Positions 14,223-46,338 of a stretch of 64,000 nt of DNA are shown piece after piece. The notes below the pieces were generated by a model. The model saw nothing but the letters and a program-made list of their open reading frames with translations, was not told where the DNA came from and searched no databases. Position 1 is the first letter of the stretch. Every line of letters begins with the position of its first letter. The DNA is taken from positions 18,366,931-18,430,930 of the forward strand of contig CAIIXF020000003.1 in NCBI GenBank assembly GCA_903813345.2. Reading direction: 5' to 3'. The DNA comes from Owenia fusiformis (Eukaryota; Annelida; Polychaeta; Sabellida; Oweniidae). The translations under genes were made by a program, and so were the position numbers.

Positions 14223-14640
14223 GATACACATACTTGTCATTTATTCTGTAGGTTTTACTGGGGATGATTTAACGTCACATATTGACCCATTGACTTGGGC
14301 ATCTTGAAGAAAGGAATTCCTAACTATATTTAGCTGCCTGTGAAAGTAAATTTGGACTGTCGTGAAACTTGTAATCCACTTTCGGAAAACGTAAAACGGT
14401 TAACTCCGTCTACAATAGCCTGTCAATTAGAAATGGTATCCTCTTGTGGGAATGTTTCACTGGTATGAAATTCCAACGTTCTCCACGCCTCTGATCACCA
14501 TTTGATGGATTTTGATTGGATGATATCAATATTAATATTTAATGACATTTAATAAAGATCGCATCGTATGCTATGTGTAGTGAGAAAAGGAACCAAAAAG
14601 CCATCGGTTTGGACCAAGGACCTACAGCTCTGCCACTGCA
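14223..14640. other. Intergenic, upstream of the fibrinogen-like gene
   Basis: Unique-looking sequence with no repeat or open frame recognised. The promoter of the PAN/fibrinogen gene is expected here; no convincing TATA box was seen. Confidence 0.4.
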
Positions 14641-15906
14641 ATGAACGCCACGCTCCTCTTCAATCTGCTGGCGTTCTCGTTATCTATATATTTCGGTATT
14701 TCAGTTAATGCTAAACGAGAAATTTACACAAAAGTCACAGACTCGAAAAAAGCAGGAAATATTACAAAGACTGTTAGCGTCAGCACTGTGGATGATTGCG
14801 CCATAGTATGTTTATCAAACGAGAAGATTTGTAGTTCGTTCAATGTAAAAACGATCGAAGGAAGCGATGTGAAGGAGTGCGAATTAAACGGAGCAAATTC
14901 CGGACCGCTTGTCACAAGCGCTCTCACTGATCATTTCTACCTTAAACGAGGTGAGATTTTTTCATTTTAATTTAACCAATGACTTTCTTAAAATACTACT
15001 TCATTCTACATCTTCTCTTTCATTTGATTTTCGATTTTTCTTGATTTACAGTAAATGATTCGAGCGTCTCATGCATGAAATGTTACAATTATATGTTGCA
15101 TTGGATGATCAAAAAATCTAAATCTCTTGTTGGGAAATTCAAATATTTCAAAAGTAATTTATTTTCCAAAAGTGTCTCAAACGTGAATAAACCTGATATT
15201 TGGAGATTAACAATAATTTTAAACTTTGCACGTTGCCTTATGTTTTCCAGTAGGTCTAACTTTGCCAAAGGACTGTAGTGATAACGTAGGCTTTACTGGT
15301 GTTAAAACAATCCAACCAAAGGGAAAAAACTTGTTCAAAGTGTACTGCAGTGGGGGATGCGTTTACATGGCCAGCCGCTTCGACGGGAGTGTTGATTTCT
15401 ACAAAGGCTGGGCAGAGTACCAAAGAGGGTTCGGAAGCCCTTTCGGAGAACATTTCATCGGCCTGGAAAATCTCCATGGTTTACTAAATCAAGGGAACTA
15501 TAAACTAAGAATTGATCTTACCACGTGGCCCCCACATAATGAAACCCGCCATGCTGAATACTCCACATTTAACGTGAGTGATGCACAAGATAACTACAAA
15601 CTGACAATTGGAAGTTATAGCGGGGATGCAGGGGACTCACTTGCCTGGCACAATGGTATGCAATTTACCACGAAGGATCGTGATCACGATGAACACCCCC
15701 GTGACAATTGTGCTGTTGACTTCACTGGGGCAATGTGGTATAACATGTGCCACAGCGCAAATCCTTTTGGTTTTTATAATTCTAATGCTAAGTGCCCTTC
15801 TTTTGCTAAGTGTATGTCATGGCACAATTGGCCAAACAAAATCGGCTCACTTTCCATTGAATATTATTCTTTCAAAAAGATTGACATGAAAGTTTGTCCA
15901 AAATAA
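14641..15906 (+). CDS. Secreted PAN/fibrinogen-like domain protein (FReD lectin), two exons
   Basis: Exon 1 is 14641-14950 and exon 2 is 15251-15906. The donor CGAG/GTGAGA and acceptor TTTTCCAG/TA both give phase 1, and the join encodes 321 residues. Residues 1-24 form a signal peptide (hydrophobic LLFNLLAFSLSIYFGI). Residues about 25-103 look like a PAN/apple module (cysteines in DDCAIVCL, KICSSF and KECEL). Residues about 108-319 are a fibrinogen-related domain: DGSVDFYKGWAEYQRGFG, GLENLHGL, a DRDHDEHPRDNCA region matching the calcium-site loop, WYNMCHSAN, and a C-terminal KKIDMKVCPK. FReD proteins bind acetylated sugars and often act in innate recognition; that role is inferred here. The product is probably extracellular. 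An in-phase open stretch begins at 15051 after TTTACAG inside the intron but has no matching donor, so it was not used. ATG 14641 was chosen because the signal peptide follows it at once. Confidence 0.88.
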
Positions 15907-23947: not shown

Positions 23948-25327
23948 TTATGATACATGCTGTTTGCGCAGGAACTCTGTATTACCATACTGTGATTCGT
24001 CTGTATCATTGCGCAGGAATTCAGTATTACTATAATGGGGATCATCCTGATAATTGCGAAGGAATTCAGTATTACCATATTCTGAATCCTCCACAGTGTC
24101 CACACCATTGCCGTGGCACTCTGAATTGCCATATTGTGAATCTTCCAAATCATTGCAGTTGAATTCAGTATGTCCGTTAAGTGAATCCTCTACATGTACG
24201 TCATTCCCCAATGTGCCAAGTTTCTCGTATATGTTTTTGACAACTGCATCATTTGTGTTCTCATTTTTCAAAGCGTATGCCGTACTCATGCTAGTCATAT
24301 CTACTCCAACGTTCTTGACGGTTGTTGCTCGAGTCTCTGATTTTTTCAAGAATTTCATTTTCAGCATTAAACACATTGTCACAATCACGCCTATTGCAAA
24401 CGCAAGTATCATGCCTAATGAAATCGTAGCCCCTTTTAAGGTAGAAATCTCTTGAATATAATGTTGCAATTTTGCATCAGTTTTGGCGAGTGTGGAAACT
24501 ACAGGGGAACTGGACTCAGATGTTGTTGCCAATGGTATTTCACCTGCATCGGATTTTGGCATCGTTGCTGTGTATGCTTCGATTGATGATTCAGACCCTA
24601 AGGGGACTTTGGACGATGGAGTGGTGGTGGAAATTTGAGGAGGTCTGGTTTCTGATGATGTTTGTGACAGTGTCAAACCTTCCTCACTCGTGGGAATAGT
24701 TGACGTTACGTCTGCCTCGGTTGATTCGATCGATGATCTAGACGTTGACGAGACATTGAACGAAGAGATGGATGTGGTAATCAGCGAGGCGTTGGCTTCT
24801 GATGATGATTGAGATGGTATCAAATTTCCCTTTGGTGTTGGTATAGTTGAATTTGGATGTGCATTGGGTGTTGCAATGGATGAGTTGATTGTTGAAGGGA
24901 TTGTGGACGATAGAGAAGTCGTATCGGCTATGCCAATTGTAAACGTTGTGTTGGAACTGCCTTCTGATGTTGGCAGAGATGGAATCACACTTGCCCTTTT
25001 GGATATTGCAGAAGTAGAAAATGCATTCGTTGTTTCGATTGGTGAATCATCCGTTGGCGAGATCGTCAATGATACCAAGGATGAGCTTATGTTGGCCGTT
25101 TGGACTCCAAATCTTTCCATGTCTCTTCTTACAACACCACGCTGTCGTGTATCTTGGTGTGTATCGTTGCTTGCAGTAGTGTTATCTGAACTATACACCG
25201 ATTTTTCGTTCACACCAGACAGCTCCAAAGTATTATCCATAGCTGTACGACTCAAAGTTGCTGAATTGCACGTTGCCTCATAATAACAAAATACGAGAGA
25301 GAGTGAAACCAAATTCATAGTGATCAT
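23948..25327 (-). CDS. Mucin-like type I membrane protein with repeated YxN tail motifs
   Basis: A single open frame of 459 residues with no intron needed; family not recognised. Residues 1-20 can act as a signal peptide (NLVSLSLVFCYY). Residues about 25-290 are Ser/Thr-rich with many N-x-S/T sites and several imperfect repeats of about 50 residues (ending in variants of STIPTSEEG and SQTSSE), as expected of a heavily O-glycosylated ectodomain. A transmembrane helix lies at about 299-322 (ISLGMILAFAIGVIVTMCLM), followed by the basic stop-transfer KMKFLKK. The cytoplasmic tail carries five degenerate repeats of the type DSxYGNTEFLRN; four keep the tyrosine: YGNS (Y399), YGNT (Y417), YSNT (Y432) and YGNT (Y447). 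pYxN is the GRB2 SH2 consensus. There is also YEKL at Y367. An adaptor-recruiting surface receptor is inferred. Start 25327 is the first ATG; ATG 25318 is an alternative. Confidence 0.8.
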   Translation of the reverse strand: MITMNLVSLSLVFCYYEATCNSATLSRTAMDNTLELSGVNEKSVYSSDNTTASNDTHQDTRQRGVVRRDMERFGVQTANISSSLVSLTISPTDDSPIETTNAFSTSAISKRASVIPSLPTSEGSSNTTFTIGIADTTSLSSTIPSTINSSIATPNAHPNSTIPTPKGNLIPSQSSSEANASLITTSISSFNVSSTSRSSIESTEADVTSTIPTSEEGLTLSQTSSETRPPQISTTTPSSKVPLGSESSIEAYTATMPKSDAGEIPLATTSESSSPVVSTLAKTDAKLQHYIQEISTLKGATISLGMILAFAIGVIVTMCLMLKMKFLKKSETRATTVKNVGVDMTSMSTAYALKNENTNDAVVKNIYEKLGTLGNDVHVEDSLNGHTEFNCNDLEDSQYGNSECHGNGVDTVEDSEYGNTEFLRNYQDDPHYSNTEFLRNDTDESQYGNTEFLRKQHVS

Positions 25328-25666: not shown

Positions 25667-25800
25667 TCCTATATGAGGTTCAGGATATTGGGATTATCCC
25701 GAGGCCAATATAATATATCTGCCCGAGGGCCGTAGGTCCCGAGGGTAGATATATTATATTGGCCAAGGGATAATCCAAATATCCTGAACCGACTTAGGAT
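25667..25800. mobile_element. Short palindromic MITE
   Basis: Arms of about 53 bp (ggttcaggatattgggatta... and its complement ending at about 25790) with an 8-base loop ccgtaggt, plus weaker pairing of flanking atcctatatgag and cttaggat. Non-coding. Confidence 0.75.
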
Positions 25801-27054: not shown

Positions 27055-27795
27055 AATAAAGGAGTGGTATCGATATCGAGAACTTTTTGAACACACGTTT
27101 CTCTTAAACCAGTCATAAAAAATCTAAAATTTTACACATCGTCAATCTAATGGTCATCTTTTGAATGGTAACAGTATAATTTGAAATAAATAAATATATA
27201 TATTTTCTTCTATATTGTTTCAGAAAACACATCAAACACTTGTTTTGTTCTTGGTATCATGTTTCCAGAGTGAAATGAAACATCTTTCCGAACCCCATTG
27301 GAACAAAACGACATAAACACAACATGTTTTGGTCTCTCAACATTGTAATTGTACAAAGGAAACCTTAAAAAGTATCTTGTCAATGAAATAAAAGGTTTAT
27401 CTTGATTTCTATCTACACTGGGGGGACCTTGTTTTAATTTTTTGAATACCCCCTCCAAAAATCAATCAAAAATTCCTTCGTACAACCACAATATTGAGAG
27501 GTCTAAAAACATGTTGTATCTGCTATCTCGTTCCAACAAGCTTCGGAAAGACATTTCATTTCATTCTCAAGAATTGTTAGAAAGGAGCAAAAACAATTGC
27601 ACTAAAAAACAAAAAATGTTAACAAAAACAGTTGTACAAAATATTTCTAAATAATTTTCGCAATAAATTGTTGTCAATCAGTCAACATTACATAAAATAC
27701 CATGTTTTTTTAAAGAAAGTTTTCAATGATTGGTTTAAGAGAAAAACATTGTTGAATTCAGTTCTCCACATCGATACCACTCCTTTTATCTATCA
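27055..27795. repeat. Imperfect inverted duplication of an unknown coding fragment
   Basis: The sequence at 27055-27110 (ggagtggtatcgatatcgag...) recurs inverted at about 27725-27795, and 27240-27400 recurs inverted at about 27475-27600. The open frames on the two arms resemble each other: minus arm NYNVERPKHVVFM and RKDVSFHS, plus arm SYNHNIERSKNMLYL and RKDISFHS. So a fragment that once coded for protein was duplicated head to head and has diverged. The family is unknown; it may be LINE-derived because it adjoins the reverse transcriptase end. Confidence 0.6.
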
Positions 27796-28570
27796 AGATA
27801 TTCATCAATTTGAACACCAAGAAAGTTAATTGATTTTACCCTTTCAATGTTGATATTATTAATCTTTATATTCACATTTTTATTAATTTGCTCTTTCTTC
27901 TTTGTTAAAACTATGTATTTGGTTTTATCATAGTTGAGTGATAGTTTATTTGATCTAAACCAATCATCCAGAGATAAAAGTTCTCGATTAAGATTATTGA
28001 CAAGTAGGTCTACATTCGAGTTATGCGCCAGAATGTTAGTATCATCAGCAAATAAAACTGATTTCAAAGTGGGAGATGCCAGATACATATCATTTATGTA
28101 TAAGATAAATAAGAGTGGCCCTAGAACCGATCCTTGGGGTATTCCATGAGATATTGATTTAACTTCAGATGAAGTATCATTGTTAAAGACCACTTGTTCT
28201 CAATTGGCTAAATATGATTTGAAAAAATTGAAGGACTTATCTCGTATTCCATAAAATTCTTATTTTTAAGCAATATTTCATGAATTAACGTGTCAAACGC
28301 TTTTGAAAGATCAAGAAAAAGTCCAATTGAATAGTCGTCATTTTCTAAGGCTGTTAATATTTTCAACAAAAGTTAATATTGCCATATATGTGGAGAAGTC
28401 TTTTCTAAATCCAAATTGTTGTAAGTAAAAGATTTGATTATTTTCGATAAATTGATAAAGACGTTCATGAACAGATGGACTAGATTTTCAAGAAGTTTAG
28501 AAAAAACTGACAAATTAGATACAGGTCTATAGATGCACCCGTCTTCAAAGTCAATACAAAGAGTAATTGT
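27786..28570 (-). pseudogene. LINE reverse transcriptase fragment (jockey/CR1-like)
   Basis: Minus-strand reverse transcriptase motifs lie in order over several frames: YRPVSNLSVFSKLLENLVH (about 28530-28475), GLFLDLSKAFDTLIHEI (motif A, about 28333-28275), GIPQGSVLGPLLFILYIND (about 28150-28090), FADD (about 28055) and INFLGVQIDEYLDR (about 27830-27790). It lacks the endonuclease and the C-terminal domain, and at least three frame breaks separate the motifs, so it is a dead copy. Its 5' end lies close to the 3' end of the IFI44-like gene. Confidence 0.85.
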
Positions 28571-28932: not shown

Positions 28933-31900
28933 CTATTCTGTATCTAGTAGTTCCACTTGGTCTTCGAAGAATGTGTCAGCTGCTCTAAGTACCTGCCTCA
29001 TTGCAACCATCGTGAGAATATCTGCAAAGGGAGATACCAAAGATAAATCAGTCATACAAAGTTACAAACCAAACCCGTTTAAAGAAAATGCCTTTTTGCG
29101 ACTATGGAATTGTCGTACAAAAAAAAACATGGTGACATTTTATTCCCACAATTAATTGAATACTTTAGGAGGTGGTTAGCAGTTTTTAAATTATTTTGGA
29201 ATGTATAGATGGCGAAATGGAAAACTGTAATATTGGCGGAGTATGAGGCATTCTAAAATATGTGAATAATACCAAATCTAATAAAATTCACCATTTTCAC
29301 AGTTTCAAATAACAATTCAACATTTTATCTTCTGTCTTAAGCAGTGTTGGTAGTTAAATGATTGTACCTTTACGTACACAGCTCTTAAATAATTATTATA
29401 CACTTCTGGCTCTAAATGTCAATTGTTACCTGTGTCCTTGTCTAACTCCATTTCTGTTGAGTAATTCTTTATAGGAAGTACATTTGTTTCTAGCATGCCA
29501 AACTTGTCACTAACCATCTGTACAAGTTCGTTGACGTTCAAGCTTCTGAACGTCAACGAGGTGTCGTATTTTACGTGTGAACAGAACTTATCGGATTTTG
29601 TTATGACAATTAAAAGCGGCAAATCTATAAAGAAAATAGAACAATATATGTAAAAACAATTTATTAACGATGACATTAGCATTTACAAAATCAGTTGCTT
29701 GTGATCACTATAACTAGTCTTTATCGTACCTCTTTCGTTTACTTGTTCCTGGATAGCCTTCAGTTTATCATAAACCTCCTCGGGCATCATCGTGATCGTG
29801 CTGCCATCTATTACAAATATGACGCCATGAATCATGTTTGCCAAAGGAGGATCCTTGATGTAACCTTGAGACTTTGGTGTGATTCGGCCTCCTGCTTTGA
29901 ACTACAATGATTTTAATTAGCTTTATAGGTAATGCCACAGAAGTTTAACAGATTGCACAAATGAGTGCTTTACTTATTTCTTTACACAGATCCTCGCGCT
30001 ATCTATCATTGAAGCAAATGTGTGTATTGGGTCTAATTGTTACTAAAGTCCGACTTTGGTCACATAATATTACTGACATTCACATGGAAGGTGAGGAAAA
30101 TGAACGGAATATGGCATGCACAATCGACAGACTGACCTATGTCACGTTGTTATTAGTTTTAGGTAAACGTACCTGGAATCTGTCAGGAAGGTTACCATCT
30201 AGAATATAAGGAAAGTCTGCAACGTTTAGTCCACCCTCCGCCTCAATACCCATTGTGTCACAGAGCCGTACACGTAAAGGGCCGTGCTCTGTTCGGACCT
30301 CGTATCGTCGGTACTGGAAAACAACTGACAATTATCATATCGACGATAAACAAGGCATTAACATGGTAAAATGTCACCACCTAGTTGCTCACAATATTAT
30401 GAGTTCAATCTGAAGTCAGATTTGAATTTTTGAGAACTTGTAGATGATTTTGAAACAATATACTGGTCAATTTGAAGCAAGTTGATAAAGACCTTTTTTG
30501 ACATTGAGAAGGTCATTGAAGGTCAAATCTCAAATCTAAAGTCAGATTTGAATTTCTGATAACTTGTAGATAATTTTGAAAAAATTGGTCAATCTGAAGC
30601 AAGTTGAAAAAAGACCCTTTCGACCTTTTTTACCTTTACCGCCGTCAAAAAACGGAGACCATAACAATATGTCACCACTTTTTTGGTGGTGACATAAAAA
30701 CTTGAATAGAAAGACTTTAAGTTACTATATTTCGGATTATCACATATCAAACTAAAAAGTCAGATTGCGATTGGTCAGATTGTAACTAATTGCTAAGGGG
30801 GAGGATCCCCCTCTTCTAATTGCTTTAACTGAACAAATGTATAACACGCCATCTATCTTATCTTACCTTTGTTGTCATACTTCCAGCTCCACTACCACTG
30901 AATGCCTTGGTGACTACGTAACCTTTGAATATGGAGTTCAATGTGTTGTATATGCTGGACTTGCCCGAACCGACTTGCCCGACCATTAGGATATTAGCAG
31001 CAGGGATGCTCAGTTCTTCAGGAGGTCTGTATGTTTGTAGGTACGACATCAGTTTAATATGGTCCTTGAATTGAATATTAGGATTACGCTATGAATACTT
31101 ACTCTTATTTCATTATGGGCCTCAAATTGATCTTTAGGGGCCTCAAAAACAGAATATTATAAAAATTTGGCATTTTTGGAAAATGTGATCCAAACATGGA
31201 ATTTTTGATAAGAAATGGGCCAAAATTGTCAAAAAATTCAAAACTATTTTATTCCCACATCCTCCTCTGAATTTCCAAAACCTAACCGATTTTTGGTACT
31301 GACCTCTTGCGACCAGCTAATCCCTCTTCGCCAAGGGCAGCTCTCAGCCGTTACGTCTTTGTCTAAAAGCAAATAGCACTATAAACATAGATTCTCAGAT
31401 CAATATATGACAAAAGTTATCGTGACCGAGACGGTACCCATTGCTGATTCATGATACAAACAAGTAAATCTAAAGGGAGCGTATTAAAAAGTGACAGAAC
31501 ACATTCTCAGAATTACGAGTGTCACGATGACATAGAATGACACACACCAATATCCCAGAACTCATACGATCATTCAAGTAAAATATTAATACACGTGTTT
31601 TAAGTTTATGATTGTGTTGATATTGATAAGACACTCTGACTCACCTAAGATGATAGCATAGACCTCAAAGTTCTTAAACTTGATATTGTTCCCGCAAAAT
31701 GACTTTGTGTCGAGGCTGTCGCTATAAGCCTTTCCAAGTTGTGGCGGCAATGCGTTACTTTCATACGTCATATCCGCAGATGGCTCCAAATCCTTTGAGA
31801 ATGAATACCAATCGCCATCCCCAAAGCATGGCGCGTGATCTTTAGAAACAAAAATGGCTTCAGTTGGTTCTTTGACTCTAGCTATTGCGGGGCTAAATCG

Positions 31901-32170
31901 ATTGTCCGCCTCTAGTCGAAATAAAAAGGCAGTGCTGTCGCATAAGAAACCACCCTCATCTTCAGGGCTGGTCCATGGTATGGAGGTGTAGCCACCGAAA
32001 ACATAGCCAGAAGTATTGTACGCCAATGTTACAGTTGGGTTTCGTTGATCGCATCTTTGGTGAAAGGTTTTGGCGCTAAAGCCATCTCTTTTAGCACTAT
32101 ATAACAGTTCACACTTCCCCGATCGCAACGCCGTCCATTTTAAAATTTGCTCTTGGTGTATGCGGTCCAT
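28933..32170 (-). CDS. IFI44L: Interferon-induced protein 44-like GTPase (TLDc + G domain), seven exons
   Basis: Exons, high to low: 32170-31645, 31362-31304, 31088-30867, 30313-30173, 29901-29730, 29624-29430, 29021-28933. All junctions are GT-AG and keep phase; the sum is 1404 nt, 467 residues plus stop. Residues about 15-175 form a TLDc domain (GYVFGGYTSIPW, DSTAFLFRL, CFGDGDW, FKNFEVYAI). The linker CPWRRGISWSQE is followed by NPNIQFKDHIKLM, typical of IFI44/IFI44L. The GTPase has the P-loop GQVGSGKSS (232-240), DTMG (288-291, G3) and TKSD (382-385, G4). The last exon encodes DILTMVAMRQVLRAAD. All nucleotide-binding motifs seem intact. Vertebrate IFI44L is interferon-induced and cytoplasmic; invertebrate members are often expanded, and an immune role here is inferred. 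The fourth intron base pairs aside, the third intron holds a MITE (30369-30707). Confidence 0.92.
30369..30707 (-). mobile_element. MITE carrying family B satellite, in an IFI44L intron
   Basis: The ends are ATGTCACCACC and GGTGGTGACAT (11-bp inverted). Inside are two tandem, minus-oriented relatives of the family B core (gtcagatttgaatttttgag, ggtcaatttgaagcaagttg, ttgacattgagaaggtcatt). It links the satellite of elements 6 and 7 to a different mobile form. Confidence 0.65.
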
Positions 32171-33109
32171 AATTTATCCTATTAAATAACCTATTAAAAA
32201 TAAAATTTGAAATGTACATTTAATTCTGTTTTGTTATGGAGCTGTCATATTTAGGCCGTGTGGGGATGGCGGGGACGACATGGCTACATGTGGGCAAAAC
32301 AAAAAGTTTTACGACAACACATCCCCTATCACACCAAATACAAAAATTACTTAATTAGAAAATCAATGCCGAAAATAAGTCACATGATGGCGAACGGCGA
32401 GATCACACAAATAATGTGAAAGCTAATTTAAGTTCCCAGCCATCTTGCATGGAGTCTTGTGAGTGGGAACGCACCTTTATGTGTTTAGCTTAATTAATCG
32501 AAATGTGTTTCTTAATTGAATTTGAATTAATTCTCAAATTTGTTTTAAGTAAATTAATGAATTAAAATACCTTTAATATCCTAATGTGTCCTTTTGTTAA
32601 ACTCTAGCGTAGTTCACTAATTGATCTCTCTGGTCTCAAGTCTAGTAGACGATTGAAATGATGTAGATGCCTAGCTTTAATTTTCTTGCTATATTTCAAA
32701 ATGATGATCTCAAAAACTTATAATGTTGATGATGCTAGTTGTTTCCAATTAGTCACACGAAAAAACCATCACACGTCAGTTCGGTCCATTCGGATTAAAA
32801 CGAAAGTAGTTTCGTTTTGGAATATAGATTCCCGTATTCCTAATTCTTCAACAGATATACAGAGTAATGCTATTGGGGATGAGGAAGTAAAATAAAGTCT
32901 CATGATCAATTACTTTATGTTTAGCAGGTTCGCGAATTGGGCTGCATGGATATTTCATTATTTCGTCGAAGTCCTTATCAATAGCTTCAATTCCAAATAC
33001 ACTCCTCACCGTCTAGGATAGGAGAAAGTATGAATCATACTATATGGAAATTTTCTGATCAATACTTCAGTAATTTTAGAACTTCTTCGAAGTGGCAATA
33101 ATCCCATAG
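32171..33109. other. Intergenic region between divergent genes
   Basis: Should contain the promoters of the IFI44-like gene (leftward) and perhaps the 5' exons of the coiled-coil gene (rightward). A phrase like the MITE end ctatcacaccaaa occurs at about 32330. A minus-strand open stretch at about 33015-32929 (VFGIEAIDKDFDEIMKYP) is flanked by CCTAG and GTAATT and could be an unassigned exon. An open frame from ATG 32701 (+, 65 codons) does not splice in phase to the next gene. Confidence 0.4.
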
Positions 33110-43300: not shown

Positions 43301-46300
43301 CGCGTAGCAGTCAATGTACAGATATTACAGTACATATAATATGTTCAATATGGCAAACATCAGCGATTCTGATTCCCGGGTTCTGGGAAATGACTATATA
43401 AATCGGCGAGAGGGTGTAATTTGAATGAAGACAATTTAAGGAGGGGAAATGTGTGCAAGTATGGCAGTAAGAGAGCAGATATGGGGACTTTAAACAAGAA
43501 CTATGACGGAGAATCAACTAAAAATGTGAGTTCTGGAATGAAGACCCGTTGCCATTGACTGAAGATTCCAGCGATCCTATTATCATACTCAGTTTGAATC
43601 TAGACGCGGAAAACAGATTATGAAAACAGGTTTTCTGCAAAGTTATCAAATTTAGAAGATATGGATCTTGTTTTTGAGTGGCTTAACAAGCATTTAGATA
43701 CCAGACTTGGCGCTATCTCTTGTCAAATACATGCACTGGACTTGCAGTAAATTGGCCATTGCAAATTGCAAAATCAGATCGTCAAATTAATCGCTTCGTT
43801 TTTAAACCTACGCTTCATATCTTCTTCCAAAACTTTAGGATTCGATAGAGATAAGTTATAACTTGTACAGGAAAAAATGGCAGATCCTACCTTAATTTAG
43901 AATCGCTGATTTCTCTGGACAAATTCCGAGAAGAAATTGTTCAACATCGCGATCACCCCAGACAACATGTCGCGTGCGTGTCACTCTGAACTCACGTGAT
44001 AAAATACGGCATCTTGATTGGTTACTACTCGTGTTGTCATGACGTGAAAAGCAGTAGTAAACACTGAATATGTTAATGAACTGCCATATATGGAACAATT
44101 GTCTTTCTGATTGGTTAACTTTACACGCCTCCTAAATGAATATAGTAGTCGTAGTAAATGATTCATTGATAACTCTGAAAGTGGGCGTGACCAGCTTCAT
44201 TTTGACACCAAATTCAAGATGTTTCAAATCAAAATGGCCTCGCAAGACGAGGTTGAAATATCAGTAATTTGATACTGATATGGTCTACGATAGATCAAAA
44301 TTGACTGCCCCGCGTCACATGTCACGTGAGCCTATATTTGTTGAAAAATGAAAGAGATAGTGACACTTTTTAATCTTAAGTTTATACCAATATTACAAAC
44401 ACATATCTATTTTTTTCATTATATATTTATTTCTTCATAATACATACATTTGTTTTATACTACATTGATTTATTTTTGCAAAACCTTTGCTATTAGATCT
44501 TTAATTTTCAATTTATAATCGTTTGGTACCATCGTGACGTCACAATATAGCATCTGACCTCATGATATGGGTACCAAATTGAAGCGGACGTGACAAGCTT
44601 TAAGATGGTACCAAACATGTGACCATTCATTTGATTAAAATGCTAACTTGAATAAGCCCAAAAGGTGTGTCACTCCCCTACCCCATCCATTTTTCAGGCC
44701 AGTGAAAAACACCAAAATCTCAAATAATCCTGGCATCTTCAGGGGTCGTTTTTTGGCCCCGTTTTATTCAAAATATCATGTTTCTGGATACCATTTTTAT
44801 CAGAAATGTCTCAATTACCTAAAAACAGTTGCACTAGTGCTGAATAAGAAAACATGTCTCCATTATGGAATTATTACACCAAAAGTAGTGCGAAATGGAC
44901 TTTTCACGCGTTGGCATAAAGTTTTGATGACATTTAAAGACATAGTTCCTCTTTCACATATATTATCTCATGGAAATGGGCATACCAGCGCAAAGATCTT
45001 TGTTCCGTGGTGGAGAAAAGCCATCAAACATTGTCTGAAGAGCAGATTTATCTCCGTAATTCTACTTTTAACATGGCGACCTTGACCTTGAAAAAATATA
45101 GCCATTTGGGCGATAATAGGTGATTCAAAAGTGAAAATGAGTGCTTTTTTCGTAGTTTTACTTTGACCAAGCCTAGAAAAAAATCGAAGTGGTAAACCTA
45201 CCCCCAATTTTTGATATTTTTGTCGTTTAGAAGTGTCCTAAATGATATCAAAGTTTAAGAAAATTTGTATGTCTAGAAATATTTTATAAATTAGTGCCAA
45301 TGTGGTGGGTTTGGGTGCTTTTTTGCTCTAATTTTTTACCCCATTTCTACGGTTGCCATGGCAACTATAAGGCTTTGGTAACCATGCCAACTTGATTTTT
45401 GAAGGACGTCCACCTGATAGTAGTTGGGCCAAGTTTGATGGAAAATGGGCCTGGTTTGATATGCTGGCAGTGAGGTTGATTGTGGCATGTAGTAAAACGG
45501 CAAAACAATGGTGGAGTCATACCATCTTGGAAAGTGAGTTTGCTTACCTGTCATTTTCATTCTTAGATACTCCAATAATTATGTTTATGGTTTCAGACGA
45601 GCTTCGCAGGTTAAGGTTTACGACGATCTGAATACCCTAGAAACATCAGGGAACCCGTCATCCTTGATAAACTTACCAGCTGGCAAATGGTGTCAGGGGA
45701 CCGATCATGTAATCTTAAACAATAACCTTTACTGTGACCACTACAATGGTAGCATGTTGATGAAGTATGACCTTTCAACTGGTGAAGCTGTTATCGCCAA
45801 CCCAATTCCAGAGTTGAAAAGAACGATCAGCCATACGTTTTGTGATGGAAGATATAGGTACCTGTCATTCTCAACAGATGAAAACGGACTTCTATGGGTG
45901 ATATACCCAACTGGTAACAAGGGCAATATTACAGTTAGTCTCTTGGATCCCGACGATCTTACAAACTTAGGGACTTGGTACACTGATTATCCCATATACG
46001 TGCCATTCGTTGGGAAGGTTGGCAACGCCTTCATGGCGAACTGTGTGTTGTATCTCACCGGGTTCTGCAAGGATTCTCCCACTGATATCCGCTATGTCTA
46101 CGATACTGTCACAAGCAAGGGGTTCGTTTTGGAAGAGAATGTGATACCTCTCTTACAGAGTAACAACGTACGCGGGGATCACCTAGACTGGGCATCTGTA
46201 TGGTCGTTGAACTATAATCCCGTTGATGATAGTTTGTATGGTAATAACTATGGAAAACTGGAACGCTATAAAGTTTCATTCGAGGAACTTGAAAGCTTTG

Positions 46301-46338
46301 AACAGGCATTTGGAAATCTAACCCAGACCTCAGCCTGA
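40391..46338 (+). CDS. Secreted olfactomedin-domain protein, five exons
   Basis: Exons 40391-40496, 40944-41086, 41314-41587, 41842-42016 and 45597-46338; all GT-AG with phases 1, 0, 1, 2 in agreement. The sum is 1440 nt, 479 residues plus stop. Signal peptide: MFWLICISHILVLGLA. Residues about 36-174 are a helical, charged region (AVEAILKDYTEIRKILDRDY; QLLPVANKLSKSKK) ending in a Asp/Lys cluster. The olfactomedin domain runs from C177 (GKCEKLYIKS) to about residue 470, with GTWLRDA, the central WCQGTDHVILNNNLYCDHYN, and the C-terminal YNPVDDSLYGNNYG that is typical of the family. Olfactomedin proteins act outside the cell in adhesion and matrix assembly; the partner here is unknown. The last intron is 3.6 kb and carries duplicated DNA. 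A broken paralog lies upstream. Confidence 0.9.
42034..42693 (+). repeat. 660-bp direct repeat, copy 1
   Basis: Starts 18 bases after the 5' splice site of the last olfactomedin intron. It matches 44866-45525 over its whole length, with only about two differences noticed by eye. Confidence 0.92.
42833..43226. mobile_element. MITE with TIR and an internal duplicated block
   Basis: AAAGGACGATTCTCGGTTTG at the left and its complement at the right (about 27 bp TIR). Inside, a block of about 185 bp (gagcattatccctgcttc ... gggtaatatttct) is present twice in tandem. Non-coding, intronic. Confidence 0.8.
43227..44865. other. Intronic sequence
   Basis: Within the last olfactomedin intron. No gene recognised; short open frames have no domains. 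Confidence 0.4.
44866..45525 (+). repeat. 660-bp direct repeat, copy 2
   Basis: Ends 71 bases before the acceptor of the last olfactomedin exon. Same length as copy 1 and nearly identical. Confidence 0.92.

Follow-up and report, generated by a model that had tools for sequence, protein, structure and literature searches.

What kind of protein is encoded by the minus-strand gene at 23948..25327 of the window (the whole 64,000-nucleotide stretch of Owenia fusiformis DNA analysed here), and could its repeated tail serve as a dock for GRB2? The coding sequence is a single open frame of 459 amino acids plus stop, matching its own genome at C3:18390881-18392257, with a stop codon immediately 5' of the first ATG. 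In 100 base-shuffled windows the longest stop-free run measured 195 codons; this gene has 459. This rules out a chance reading frame, and the ORF is intact and real. All its features lie on the minus strand. A probable signal peptide begins at Met4 (MNLVSLSLVFCYYEATC, 25268..25318; hydrophobic core 2.61 over 9 residues) and resembles exon 1 of a relative called B below (MNLFFLCVIFGV...). It is followed by a Ser/Thr-rich stem (24479..25267), predicted to be probably O-glycosylated, built of repeats of about 49 amino acids and of low predicted order. Residues 18-287 contain 38% Ser+Thr and 8 N-x-S/T sequons, and the DNA repeats of the stem fall into families, one with spacings of 147-165 nt and others with 135-147 nt. 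A short helix (DAKLQHYIQEISTLKGAT, 24425..24478), delimited by alignment, common to family members and included in a model helix spanning 275-339, precedes a transmembrane (TM) helix at residues 302-322 (24362..24424; hydropathy and model). This single TM segment has basic residues on its cytoplasmic side, in the sequence KMKFLKK, and leads into a tail of 137 amino acids. The AlphaFold2 single-sequence model is weak because its mean pLDDT was 40.6, with values below 50 for residues 18-265; it was confident only at the helix around the TM segment, stem and tail being mostly below 50. A Pfam scan of the protein at E up to 10 gave three unrelated weak matches, none above the cut-off. The sequence-only reading had described an intronless gene for a receptor-like protein with a repeated, mucin-like ectodomain. 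Once TM and signal predictions had been run, this layout held, with one TM segment, a signal-like N-terminus and stem repeats mostly 135-165 nt apart; as signal-like start, stem, TM and tail share one open frame, the gene appears to be intronless.

The tail holds five copies of a 45-nt unit, spaced by 45, 45, 54 and 45 nt, and a membrane-near YEKL motif (Y367, 24218..24229). The other four copies are 60-73% identical to the reference copy, and Tandem Repeats Finder reported 2.6 copies of a 45-nt unit. Repeats 2 to 5 read DSQYGNSEC (Y399, YGNS; 24108..24152), DSEYGNTEFLRN (Y417, YGNT; 24054..24098), DPHYSNTEFLRN (Y432, YSNT; 24009..24053) and ESQYGNTEFLRK (Y447, YGNT; 23964..24008). Tandem repeats with Y-x-N kept in four of five had been claimed, and residues 399, 417, 432 and 447 bear this out. 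Repeat 1 (24153..24197) had been said to have lost its tyrosine, which is correct as far as it goes; the loss is wider, the degenerate sequence DSLNGHTEF (LNGH) having neither Tyr nor Asn. When the tail was shuffled 20,000 times, 63 of the shuffled versions reached four YxN (mean 0.81). The four sites are one amplified motif and not four independent events.

Relatives of the gene were sought in the host assembly (498 Mb, 525 contigs). The best other match, relative A (L048; C3:19341337), lies some 950 kb from the gene, on its own contig (E 4.8e-19). Relative B (L049; C1:24053779) was found with the TM segment and tail of A as query (E 3.3e-13), and matches to this query beyond A and B were weak (E at least 0.001). 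The existence of A and B rules out an orphan gene. Over the pre-TM helix, TM segment and tail, the window gene is identical to A at 51 of 115 aligned positions and to B at 41 of 104. Like it, both have the pre-TM helix, the TM segment, YEKL (A) or YETL (B), the motif Y-G-N-[ST]-E-F-L-R and a Ser/Thr stem. Unlike it, they have a Cys-rich ectodomain of about 350 amino acids, an inferred phase-1 intron behind a signal-peptide exon that appears to end in CK-G, and a single copy of the motif, at the C-terminus (DSQYGNSEFLRK and DLQYGNTEFLRN). Searched in the 498 Mb as a degenerate DNA pattern that leaves out AGY serines at the S/T position, Y[GSR]N[ST]EFL[RS] gave five exact matches, of which the window gene holds three and A and B one each. 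Matches with one or two mismatches were at noise level (271 against 529 in the reversed control). In a tree built from the TM region, A was nearest to the window gene, followed by B, with weak support for the fork.

The 351-residue ectodomain of A gave 70 match segments in the host genome at E up to 1, 31 of them spanning 300 or more of its residues (A included; one with an internal TGA). Twenty-two aligned ectodomains, among loci L018-L047, have many invariant cysteines in common. A profile search of the family ectodomain against PDB returned no match at E up to 10, and a Pfam scan of the 22 members returned 13 families, none common to more than three members, with a best E of 0.0094. The family is sizeable, and its ectodomain has no match in the versions of Pfam and PDB that were used. 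Repeated PAN/apple-like modules, seen by eye, received no support from Pfam; the ectodomain apparently consists of two halves of related sequence. In a literature search with most subscription journals outside its coverage, no paper on such a family and no public name was found. The family layout is a Cys-rich ectodomain, a stem, a TM segment and, in many members, a tail with tyrosine motifs. The sequence-only reading knew of no named family with the layout of the window gene. That statement has to be amended: the gene belongs to a large receptor family, minus the ectodomain. It has the homologous pre-TM helix, TM segment and tail, and has neither the Cys-rich ectodomain nor a separate signal-peptide exon or phase-1 intron.

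How did the gene come to be without these parts? No ectodomain was detected in the window: tblastn with the 22 ectodomains gave nothing below E 0.48, the best i-Evalue of an ectodomain profile search was above 1 among the matches listed, and none of the 70 segments found with A falls inside it. A hidden upstream ectodomain exon was discarded on these three results. In a blastn comparison of the window with A the 5' flank carried no deletion trace, the matches being confined to TM segment and tail, tail repeats and one 55-bp piece of stem. From Met4 (MNLVSLSLVF) the gene is identical to exon 1 of B (MNLFFLCVIF) at 24 of 36 nt, a value reached by 8 of 5000 codon shuffles, and the gapped score of the signal region was reached by 10 of 2000 shuffles for B and 58 of 2000 for A; the ungapped comparison with A (14 of 36 nt, reached by 2524 of 5000) was not significant. 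A loose scan detected candidate signal-peptide exons at 8 of 26 family loci, convincing only in A and B. A family-wide signal-peptide exon was accordingly not retained and, the other candidates being unconvincing, a model in which such an exon was fused to the stem is drawn from A and B.

From these sequence comparisons it is most likely that the window gene lost the ectodomain and the intron and amplified the motif, since A and B have both of these parts and one motif copy, and exact matches to the motif pattern are confined to the three genes. Intron and ectodomain could have gone together in one deletion that began at the end of exon 1 and reached into the stem; the product would be a stem receptor with no intron. 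Alternatively, a processed copy may have lost the ectodomain later, and the order of the events is one that we infer. A near-palindrome at 25677-25790, which begins some 350 bases 5' of the gene and has two 53-nt arms, 89% complementary and separated by 8 nt, looks like a small mobile element.

Among these three genes of one genome, the motif has diverged less than the remainder of the tail. A 13-aa motif, which was not chosen blind, was compared with the remaining alignment from the coil to YEKL: identities were 11/13 against 43/87 for window and A (one-sided Fisher p 0.016), 9/13 against 32/79 for window and B (p 0.052) and 9/13 against 31/79 for A and B (p 0.043). The converse pattern in orthologs, tyrosines lost from a tail otherwise kept, had been named as evidence against the docking reading; within this genome it was not seen, the YGN core being kept in A and B while the rest diverges. 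Among six YxN units pN/pS was 0.18 for YGNTEF, 0.44 for the acidic flank and 0.30 for LRN, and with the degenerate unit added it was 0.20, 0.50 and 0.46, respectively. Tyr is TAT and Asn is AAT in all six units; as these codons never vary, they show identity, with no synonymous change of their own.

These values bear on whether the gene is a decaying relic of its family, deprived of its ectodomain, with repeats grown by replication slippage into an array without selected function. Such decay would fit the lack of any ectodomain near the gene in the tblastn search, the repeat that is minus its site and the longer branch of the window gene, which exceeds that of A in both trees (0.9 against 0; 0.73 against 0.33). 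Because of this branch length, and as no well-supported set in either tree holds the window gene, constraint on this copy may have relaxed. We nevertheless consider a relic quite unlikely: all 459 codons are intact, the repeats are old (pS 0.45-0.63 between units) and still keep Y, N and mostly F, the pN/pS of their core is low, and the comparison of the window gene with A over 87 codons gives a dN/dS of 0.45 (Fisher p 0.004), a value that partly reflects the constraint on A itself.

Tyrosine motifs were surveyed across the family in 34 open frames, namely those of the window gene, of L008, L013 and L015 and of the 30 loci with the best ectodomain matches; the survey covered open frames only, so that exons outside a frame would escape it. 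A hydropathy cut gave a clear TM segment in 25 of the 34 and none in the other 9. Y[ED]x[LIV] was present in 12 of the 25 tails against 2.2 in shuffles (reached by 0 of 4000), and in 11 of 24 against 2.0 when the window gene was omitted. YxN was present in 10 of 25 against 8.2 in shuffles (reached by 997 of 4000), which is no enrichment per tail. As only the former is enriched in this way, the YExL-like motif, to which the YEKL of the window gene belongs, is the family-wide signal. The total number of YxN sites in the 25 tails did exceed that in shuffles (27 against 12.2), also without the window gene, L013 and L020 (14 against 7.3; reached by 36 of 4000). YxN is thus used by some family members and multiplied in a few. 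Nine YxN follow the TM segment of L013 (C5:11423747 region), in longer and looser repeats. L020 (C3:21510966 region) has at least 20 tail tyrosines, with an EYAEV/EYTEP array recurring every 20-22 residues; its tail reaches the end of its locus and the count is a lower bound. Since L013 and L020 carry tyrosine-motif arrays of their own, tail amplification seems to have happened more than once in the family.

The family-wide enrichment of Y[ED]x[LIV], the retention of YEKL or YETL in A and B, and the YEKV motif found beside YTNP in the MUC1 tail, as described in the available part of PMC5039420, would all suit a tail that signals mainly through YEKL-type sites, bound by Src-family or phosphatase SH2 domains, with the YxN sites weak, secondary or tuning. 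We treat this as a serious though doubtful alternative. It was the YxN unit, not YEKL, that the window gene multiplied, and YxN was kept in four of the five copies.

A single GRB2 gene is expected in an invertebrate. A search with fly Drk detected three GRB2/Drk-like loci, more than this expectation, all on contig C9 (L050, L051 and L052), with 63%, 59% and 68% identity to Drk in their best segments. All three carry (F/Y)LWVVKFNSL, the Trp of which we take to be equivalent in position to GRB2 Trp121. The partner required by the docking reading is therefore encoded in this genome, by three GRB2-type genes that keep the key Trp. In the text available from PMC3787023, the GRB2 SH2 domain recognises pY-X-N-X with Trp121 taking part, and prefers pY-(L/V)-N-(V/P). 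The window sites have Gly or Ser at +1 and Ser or Thr at +3; given this preference, pY-G/S-N-S/T should be tolerated by GRB2 but is probably not a strong site. The multiplicity of sites could offset the weakness of single ones.

We hold with middling confidence that the tail is a multivalent GRB2-type dock. The product would be a type I protein of the plasma membrane, with a stiff, presumably glycosylated stem, a TM segment and a disordered tail. Phosphorylation by a tyrosine kinase would create up to four pY-x-N sites, each of which may receive a GRB2/Drk-like adaptor through its SH2 domain. GRB2 with SOS could then bridge neighbouring receptors, with clustering or Ras signalling as the outcome, as in the case of LAT and LAX. 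With the ectodomain lost and one motif multiplied, several copies of GRB2 could gather at once. The membrane-near YEKL would probably act as an SH2 site in its own right, of a kind belonging to the wider family. A Grb2-associated phagocytic receptor described from amphioxus lacks a tail of its own, according to the accessible text of PMC10199209. The array might also be read by another adaptor, GADS-like or TSAd-like, or serve in sorting rather than in Ras signalling: the excerpted text of PMC5440646 has a YxN of CD6 binding the SH2 domains of GADS, GRB2 and TSAd, and that of PMC5039420 has internalisation of MUC1 depending on the YHPM and YTNP sites. We consider this very unlikely, as the search with Drk gave three loci with a GRB2-type SH2 domain.

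LAT, LAB (NTAL) and LAX have a short extracellular part and a juxtamembrane CxxC palmitoylation site, and are not known to carry a long Ser/Thr stem. Unlike them, the window protein has about 280 residues before the TM segment, and VTMCLMLKMKFLKK contains one Cys and no CxxC. Its sites are near-identical tandem repeats, in a gene of receptor-family descent, and, in the Pfam scan of the window protein at E up to 10, it showed no homology to LAT, LAB or LAX. What it has in common with them, in the available descriptions, is the presence of several YxN in a membrane-anchored tail, four in the present case. The accessible account in PMC3291652 counts three GRB2 sites of this type in LAT, three in LAB and five among the ten tyrosines of LAX, and describes a valency that makes bridging through GRB2-SOS1-GRB2 possible. 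The tail of MUC1 has one GRB2 site, YTNP, and the motif YEKV (PMC5039420, available part). As there described, MUC1 is like the window protein in its repeated Ser/Thr ectodomain, one TM segment, GRB2-type tail site and YEKV (YEKL here), and differs in having one GRB2 site against four candidate sites. The SEA domain of MUC1 was absent from the Pfam matches of the window protein at E up to 10; the resemblance is one of layout only, no sequence relation being seen. Judged by sequence, the window protein belongs to neither group. By analogy with these partly available accounts it would act most like LAX, LAT and LAB and is laid out like MUC1, and both multi-pYxN membrane scaffolds and a mucin with a GRB2 site are kinds already known from them.

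A wider proposal, which we put forward as speculative and unlikely, is that the family is an independent invertebrate counterpart of LAT-type proteins: a large repertoire of receptors with a novel Cys-rich ectodomain, in which tandem amplification of phosphotyrosine motifs raised tail valency in at least three members (YGNT x4 in the window gene, YxN x9 in L013, EYAEV/EYTEP in L020), with the window gene acting as a ligand-free GRB2 scaffold shared by ligand-binding relatives. If the docking reading itself is right, one genome would hold a natural series from one-site relatives to a four-site descendant, alongside other family members that multiplied other tyrosine motifs. The evolution of receptor valency for GRB2 would become directly testable, as would multiple origins of LAT-like multivalent scaffolds in animals.

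Elsewhere in the window, PAN and fibrinogen C-terminal domains are encoded in neighbouring open frames, probably of one gene (14584-15906, plus strand). A TLDc domain (31586-32173, minus strand), an olfactomedin domain (45538-46338, plus strand) and a reverse-transcriptase fragment (27786-28199, minus strand) were also identified.
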